Source: a virus
IMG/VR virus record: IMGVR_UViG_3300046690_000166
Location: 1 to 46,877 of that record
DNA length: 46,877 nt
Direction: 5' to 3' (one strand)
Shown: positions 43,683 to 43,857 of the stretch, piece after piece
How the letters are laid out: each line of letters begins with the position of its first letter
How positions within the stretch are numbered: the stretch's first letter is position 1
Notes under the pieces: model-generated
Told to the model about the DNA's origin: nothing
Database searches by the model: none
The model's input: only the letters and a program-made list of their open reading frames with translations
Program-made: the position numbers and the translations under genes

Positions 43683-43857
43683 GATCCACGCTCAATGATT
43701 GGTCTGTCTCAATCTCAATTGATCTCAACGCCCCACTAAAGTCTATATCCATATGTATACGTATATACCCTATGTATATAACCACTATATAACCACTTTT
43801 CGAATAGCTCTTTTTACTAGGTCTGAGATGGTCTGAGATTGAGACAGGAATTTTCAT
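43675..43857 (-). CDS. Possible 60-residue protein across the AT-rich island
   Basis: The ORF starts in a TGATG overlap with the primase stop and ends 8 bp into terS (ATGAGTAA), the coupling seen elsewhere in this genome. The protein (MKIPVSISDHLRPSKKSYSK and an Ile/Tyr-rich middle) is compositionally odd because it is read through the AT-rich palindromic island. It lacks a Shine-Dalgarno site. It could be a real gene with an embedded origin or chance. Confidence 0.35.
   Translation of the reverse strand: MKIPVSISDHLRPSKKSYSKSGYIVVIYIGYIRIHMDIDFSGALRSIEIETDQSLSVDHE
43704..43847. other. AT-rich island with inverted and tandem repeats: candidate replication origin or packaging site
   Basis: A perfect 14-bp inverted repeat (CTGTCTCAATCTCA at 43704-43717 and its complement at 43834-43847) flanks about 115 bases. 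The core (43735-43800) is very AT-rich with TATATAACCAC repeated in tandem and several TATA steps, in a GC-rich genome. Next to the right arm GGTCTGAGAT occurs twice in tandem (43820-43839). Next to the left arm ATCTCAA occurs twice. Iterons plus an easily melted core, beside the primase gene, is the layout of an origin. Adjacency to terS also allows a packaging-site role. Confidence 0.6.

Follow-up and report, generated by a model that had tools for sequence, protein, structure and literature searches.

PICI origins consist of two iteron sets that flank an AT-rich region; they lie immediately 3' of rep and are functional in E. coli (PMC6092414). The plasmid pRN1 depends on a 100-bp stem-loop, in which a change in one arm needed a matching change in the other, and mutations of GTG left replication going (PMC4234260). 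Both TTTGGTTA and GTGG are recognised by the PrimPol of phage NrS-1, GTGG with the higher efficiency (PMC8718748); the 8-nt recognition site is reported to occur twice in NrS-1, and the two copies were suggested as a possible origin (PMC7102993). The passages on NrS-1 in PMC8718748 and PMC7102993 make no mention of iterons.

The stretch of DNA considered here, referred to as the window, is the whole 46,877-nucleotide virus record IMGVR_UViG_3300046690_000166. Between its genes for a primase-helicase and for the terminase small subunit (terS) lies an AT-rich island that is very likely the replication origin of this phage; it would be recognised by the primase-helicase encoded directly upstream in the direction of transcription and would work through iterons, a melting core, and bidirectional forks. 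This reading is drawn from sequence comparison. Older work on Streptococcus thermophilus phages concerned origin regions near primase genes. The part of the literature that was covered includes work on PICI, SCCmec, PLE, and pRN1, and in it no published phage origin of such a layout was found for NrS-1 or for the relatives of the window.

Structure of the island

The gap between the primase-helicase and terS genes is 174 bp long and contains a perfect 14-bp inverted repeat around an AT-rich core. The features of the locus are as follows:

42861-43682, minus strand: P0001, terminase small subunit TerS (PF03592, E 2.1e-19), downstream of the element
43704-43727: arm distal to the primase gene, with minus-strand iterons TGAGAC, then TGAGAT twice, at spacings of 6 and 10 bp (GTCTCA 43706-43711; ATCTCA 43712-43717; ATCTCA 43722-43727)
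43728-43823: AT-rich core, 96 bp, 66% AT, candidate unwinding element
43775-43796, minus strand: tandem GTGGTTATATA within the core, with AAAA ahead of it; candidate site at which the PrimPol domain starts on its template
43824-43847: primase-side arm, with plus-strand iterons TGAGAT 43824-43829, TGAGAT 43834-43839, and TGAGAC 43840-43845
43857-44219, minus strand: C-terminal 120 residues of the primase-helicase, proposed iteron-binding domain
43857-46499, minus strand: P0002, primase-polymerase/helicase, 880 aa from TTG, proposed initiator

A first, sequence-only reading of the window had described the perfect 14-bp inverted repeat, and CTGTCTCAATCTCA at 43704-43717 is indeed the exact reverse complement of 43834-43847; the repeat extends to 24 nt at 83% (43704-43727 against 43824-43847). 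Alignment of arm to arm resolves each arm as TGAGAT-N4-TGAGAT-TGAGACAG, mirror-imaged on both sides except for the 4-nt spacer, and the TGAGATTGAGAC pattern has exactly two copies in the whole window, one in each arm. Both tandem repeats listed in the first reading are present, TATATAACCAC at 43775-43785 and 43786-43796 and GGTCTGAGAT at 43820-43829 and 43830-43839, but TATATAACCAC belongs to the core, and the iterons mirrored in both arms are TGAGAT/TGAGAC, three per arm at spacings of 6 and 10 bp.

The island had also been called the only one of its kind in the genome, which holds on several measures. At 14 bp it exceeds every other exact inverted repeat in the window with a loop of this class (the runners-up have 13 and 12 bp); the AT maximum of the window falls on the island as one of two stretches at 60 bp and as the sole one at 100 bp; and by nearest-neighbour energy no other 60 or 80 bp of the genome is as unstable as the stretches that sit almost wholly inside the core. 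The pairing score of the two arms, 17, was matched by 1 of 5000 random stretches of the same genome, which could overlap the island itself; under a second scoring, with controls drawn away from the island, 0 of 197 reached the score of the window's own arms.

The arms could pair in a transcript as well, and the island separates two genes that are read from one strand, as would be expected of a structured RNA or a transcription-control element in the primase-terS transcript. Such an element is scarcely credible: no Rfam match was found in the window and no promoter-like or terminator-like site at 43600-43900, each arm holds iterons inside it, and an archaeal plasmid has the same layout.

Flanking genes

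The placement of the island between primase-helicase and terS genes, also given by the first reading, is borne out by PHROG and Pfam matches of P0002 and P0001. P0002 is a primase by PHROG 1829 (E 1.1e-77), by Pfam PF22763 and PF19263, and by PDB profile matches; these include the NrS-1 PrimPol profile 6k9a (E 6e-32), with the helicase-like region also matching. A further match, 7ola, which we take to be the SaPI5 primase-helicase, is given no weight here. The likely start of P0002 is an internal ATG at residue 7. For its C-terminal 120 residues a winged-helix-like topology is predicted (pLDDT 75). This winged-helix reading is weak; Foldseek found no match to the predicted domain at E 0.001 or better, and VIA-align gave a best Z of 4.6, with no named replication-initiator winged helix standing out. 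The model of the whole primase-helicase had a mean pLDDT of 46.9 and was not used.

Two cysteine clusters, RCCRHCWG and ECPVCLGEGH, lie in an insertion within TerS (42861-43682) that is kept in close relatives and suggests a zinc-binding module inside Terminase_2. Elsewhere in the window, a single ORF at 29469-31247 joins a NUDIX domain and DUF2213.

Coordinated change of the arms in close relatives

Searches with the primase and TerS found six further distinct genomes, L003, L008, L009, L010, L012, and L015; L006 stands in for L003 where a long contig is needed, and the searches also gave other contigs almost identical to L003. The element lies between primase and terS in the window and in all six of these genomes. 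With one cutting of the arms applied to the seven genomes, the gap after the primase stop is 146-174 bp and the core 80-94 bp, with 62-67% AT. The arm type is TGAGAT in the window, CAGAACACAGAACA in L003, L009, and L015, CAGGACACAGGACA in L008, and ACTCAGAACTCAG in L012. When each genome's own two arms are matched, the scores are 17 (window), 19 (L003), 18 (L008), 19 (L009), 13 (L010), 26 (L012), and 20 (L015); random stretches of the same genome, among which the island itself could be drawn, reached these scores in 1 or 2 of 5000 cases, or in 14 of 5000 for L010, whose arms are weaker (6 of 181 controls reach its score). The arms of the window matched with those of other genomes score only 5-11, so both sides changed together. 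In the core, AAAAGTGGT is kept in six of the seven genomes. The lowest stability of any 60 bp falls in the island in all seven, and that of any 80 bp in six. Two separated arms have changed in coordination around a conserved core.

An origin of this kind could also act through a cruciform or large stem-loop formed by the arms, as in the pRN1/BPP-1 model, instead of through iterons that are read by a DNA-binding domain. The essential 100-bp stem-loop of pRN1, with its need for compensatory arm changes (PMC4234260), speaks for this mechanism, as do the arms of L012, which pair perfectly over 26 bp. Perfect arms such as these fit both models, and two facing initiator rings would likewise need symmetric arms; in the window, L003, and L010, the spacers within the arms are unpaired, which counts against a stem.

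The exact TGAGAT arm pattern was found in no stretch of the viral contigs searched. The core pattern was found in 15, of which 10 lie in contigs already known from the phage group; the other five contigs (L062, L063, L064, L073, and L075) had no matching layout in the surrounding bases or in the ORF list of L062. At L062:4755-4777 and L073:10371-10393, AAAAGTGGTTAAAAAGTGGTTAAA stands beside CGACTC repeats 10 bp apart, and a 375-aa ORF adjoins in L062; these contigs belong to a different phage group, and the arrangement looks like a single side of the origin layout.

Candidate proteins for reading the iterons

Among the close genomes, the C-terminal 100 residues of the primase diverge faster than its body. 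Between the window and L003, body identity is 86% and C-terminal identity 59%; between the window and L008, L009, L010, and L015 it is about 60% and 47-50%, and between L003 and the same four genomes about 60% and 60-62%. Divergence of the C-terminus goes with that of the iterons at a partial Mantel r of 0.62 (315 of 5040 permutations), which is not significant at 5%. The trend suggests that the primase, via its C-terminus, may be the iteron-reading protein, as expected from SaPI Rep and Cch2 (PMC7581432).

A two-type rule, by which the type of the C-terminal tail gives the type of the iteron, was clean in the seven genomes and was dropped when L107, a wider relative, broke it; the C-terminus of L107 resembles that of the window, yet its GAACAG iterons resemble those of L003. 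A genome-wide incongruence scan for genes that co-vary with the iterons is not counted as support, because the genomes are mosaic and many genes besides the primase C-terminus place L006 nearer to other phages than to the window, so that the scan is not specific. Most other common genes of the window and L003 are far less alike than the 86% identical primase body, which suggests that the primase segment was exchanged recently among these mosaic genomes (window, L003/L006).

The first reading had named a packaging site as the alternative to an origin; the island would then be a packaging initiation site (pac or cos) whose arms are recognised by TerS, and many phages do have such a site beside terS. 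Paired boxes that flank a core are known from pac sites too, and the element touches terS in the window, in the six close genomes, and in L107. Against this reading, the N-terminal identity of TerS shows no relation to the similarity of the iterons (partial Mantel r 0.02; 2321 of 5040 permutations).

Strand composition and contig ends

Cumulative GC skew, a suggested check, places its minimum less than 2 kb from the element in six of the seven genomes. After detrending, these six have the minimum 0.3-1.9 kb before the element, whereas L008 has it 4.1 kb past the element; the maximum lies at 14.7-31.5 kb, with the element as 0. At fourfold sites of same-strand genes, taken from a simple longest-ORF pick, GC skew ranges from 0.11 to 0.17 over 15 kb to one side of the element and from -0.02 to 0.07 over the final 10.5 kb to its other side, and it falls across the element in all seven genomes; because the genomes are related, these results are not seven independent tests. 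The pattern agrees with divergent forks and may reflect early and late expression instead of replication.

Positions 1-127 of the window are identical to 46751-46877. The terminal overlap is also 127 bp in L009, L010, and L015 and is 123 bp in L012, so that five of the seven contigs close on overlaps of 123-127 bp, which most likely are assembly k-mer overlaps of complete circular contigs. These overlaps lie at positions unrelated to the element and say nothing on virion ends. That the contigs break elsewhere than at the island, and differently between genomes, was counted against packaging.

Recurrence of the element after distant primase genes

A profile search with the helicase domain found further viral contigs and 14 bacterial-genome loci, presumably, by their titles, mostly from Betaproteobacteria and Rhodobacterales. 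Of these, 29 loci were examined, comprising 15 viral loci beyond the known contigs (L123-L129 not among them) and the full set of 14 from bacterial genomes; the short length of L132 prevented scoring, leaving 28. Inverted arms right after the primase stop beat every control in 16 of the 28 (L107, L111-L116, L122, L130, L131, and L133-L138); L119 was borderline (2 of 182 controls), and the arms failed against controls in L109, L110, L117, L118, L120, L121, and L139-L143. The iterons of the wider loci are unrelated in sequence (GGTTACGCT, GCCCCCTTA, TGTCTCAC, GGATCCTCT, CCGTGCCA, and others). The first 110 nt past the primase stop of L122 hold GTGTCAGGT-type repeats in several orientations, denser than the three-per-arm pattern.

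For the 16 wider and seven close loci together, the primase-side arm has its best direct repeat at a spacing of 7-12 bp in every one of the 23, with arm limits set by hand from the preceding scoring of wider loci. In 20 of the 23, no more than 5% of shuffles attain the direct-repeat score, the exceptions being L009 (28 of 500), L135 (42 of 500), and L010 (80 of 500). Among the 23 cores, GTGG occurs in nine (shuffle mean 6.45), or in 4 of 18 without near duplicates (mean 3.93), and is not enriched. AAAGTG, a motif picked post hoc, occurs in 10 of 23 cores and, without near duplicates, in 5 of 18 against a shuffle mean of 0.69, a count reached in 2 of 1000; the core of L012 lacks it.

Eight further records came from the pRN1 paper or from BLAST searches, namely pRN1, pHEN7, pRN2, pDL10, Acinetobacter phage 4316, BcepC6B, BPP-1, and mycobacteriophage Yuna. 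Inverted arms lie 3' of the replication gene in all eight, in counts for which control windows could overlap the element, and direct repeats spaced by 9 bp in the arm exceed shuffles in six. The repeat score was reached by 13 of 1000 shuffles for pRN1, 42 for pHEN7, 1 for 4316, 0 for BcepC6B, 2 for BPP-1, and 2 for Yuna; the repeats are not beyond shuffles in pRN2 (369 of 1000) and pDL10 (768 of 1000). The first 240 nt after the annotated primase stop of BPP-1 gave nothing; as its array lies about 470 nt past that stop, this record was searched from 380 nt on.

Arrays were also sought in 10 records of known phages taken from primase matches, and were found in NrS-1 and E. coli phage 611R5 (1 of 150 and 3 of 150 controls, respectively, from control windows that could overlap the element). 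The other eight have no clear array after the related primase: SFCi1, Bcep1, KPhi1, Scuro, PEi21, BUCT_49532, and AAM22, together with KB12-38, which has a weak 12-point repeat. The primase stop of NrS-1 is at 17051, and GTTACACTTT occurs exactly 10 times in that genome as a perfect copy, each time within 17062-17377. Within this array, at 17198, is the sole exact TTTGGTTA of AB746912.1; the exact 8-nt site thus has one copy in that record against the two given in PMC7102993. The cumulative GC skew minimum of NrS-1 is not at the array. The annotated hypothetical protein NRS1_29 (L144:3937-4338, equal to AB746912.1 17055-17456) reads straight through the iteron array with a repetitive translation, and is probably not a gene.

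Across these records the constant neighbour of the element is the primase 3' end rather than terS. The gene beyond it is HNH in L112 and L113 and a terS ORF in L107; an HNH gene also adjoins the element of BPP-1, Q and lysis genes follow that of 611R5, with no terS in the 2.4 kb shown beyond, and pRN1 has the layout with no virion genes on the plasmid. The packaging alternative loses weight accordingly, since the downstream neighbour is not always terS and TerS divergence does not track the iterons; packaging alone is unlikely, and a pac or cos site read by TerS is judged very improbable as the explanation of the island.

The direct repeats bear on the stem-loop mechanism, as a stem needs none, and they are present 7-12 bp apart in the arms of all 23 loci and at 9-bp spacing in six of the eight records picked from the literature or by BLAST; the array of NrS-1, moreover, is not one clean stem. 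Most predictions are common to the two models, and iterons are favoured because of the internal repeats and the unpaired spacers. That the island acts as an origin through a stem-loop instead of iterons is therefore unlikely.

Proposed mechanism of initiation

The origin architecture that the first reading had seen in the island is well supported by comparison, through the joint change of the arms, the unstable core, and the presence of the element after the primase gene in distant relatives. Initiation might proceed as follows. The C-terminal domain of the primase-helicase would bind three short non-palindromic iterons per arm, in opposite orientations, and one ring, or half of a double ring, would be seated on each side facing inwards, by analogy with SaPI Rep and SCCmec Cch2. 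The core, being AT-rich, would melt, the AEP PrimPol domain would prime on the strand thus made single, perhaps where the AAAAGTGGTTA repeats lie, and two forks would depart in opposite directions, giving bidirectional replication.

A wider generalisation can be offered tentatively, at somewhat less than even confidence. One origin plan, with mirror-image iteron sets around a low-stability core directly 3' of the gene, may be common to AEP primase-helicase replicons in tailed phages, in PICIs, and in the pRN plasmids of archaea. Its iterons would diverge fast with the initiator, and the core or array would carry the template start motif of the primase (AAAAGTGG(TTA) here, TTTGGTTA/GTG in NrS-1). 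Were this common plan true, the NrS-1 origin would be 17062-17377, and the 'stem-loops' of pRN1 and BPP-1 would be inverted iterons.

Comparison with known replication origins

The SCCmec initiator helicase Cch2 binds repeats directly downstream of its own operon via its C-terminal domain (PMC7581432), and the SCCmec iteron AAGTG recalls the core motif AAAAGTGG of the window. SCCmec differs in having a single direct-repeat region with three iterons, a primase that is a separate protein pair, and a chromosomal cassette as its setting (PMC7581432).

NrS-1 shares with the window a PrimPol with a helicase-like region and an iteron array directly 3' of the primase gene. It differs in its roughly 10 iterons in a less regular array and in its TTTGGTTA, which is absent from the window.

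Like the window, the pRN1/BIP-1/BPP-1 family has an inverted repeat of about 100 bp 3' of a gene for an AEP primase-helicase, and its sequence is poorly conserved with pairing kept; the protein of the family also has a winged helix, with which the predicted topology of the P0002 C-terminus would agree. These origins are described as lacking iterons (PMC4234260), whereas the arms of the window are iteron sets. In the present comparison the stems of pRN1, pHEN7, and BPP-1 also hold repeats spaced by 9 bp (those of pRN2 and pDL10 not significantly), and the window origin probably matches the 'stem-loop' origins of pRN1 and BPP-1 too.

The rep-ori region of PICIs and SaPIs has two iteron sets and an AT-rich region 3' of the gene for a primase/helicase initiator, and its iteron sequence varies between members (PMC6092414; PMC7581432). 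The window has oppositely oriented iteron sets that flank an AT-rich region, directly 3' of the gene for the proposed initiator, a role in which P0002 is cast by inference, and its iterons likewise vary between relatives. In contrast to PICIs, the element sits in tailed-phage genomes of about 47 kb with portal, terminase, and DNA polymerase genes. The window genome (46.9 kb) encodes its own portal (32283-33893), TerL (36684-38306), and DNA polymerase (10200-12239) and so is not a satellite that takes its virion from a helper phage; it is not a PICI, though its origin would work like that of one. The island is thus probably a tailed-phage origin of the PICI kind.

Earlier descriptions set PICI origins apart from every known bacterial replicon; complete tailed phages with this anatomy link them with pRN1 and BPP-1. 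An origin can then be proposed from sequence alone in genomes with such a primase-helicase. For NrS-1, whose PrimPol is a biochemical model, a defined stretch becomes the candidate origin, where initiation could be studied jointly with the loading of the helicase and with sequence-specific priming, and the fast, coordinated change of iterons between close phages would set up natural groups of replicon compatibility.
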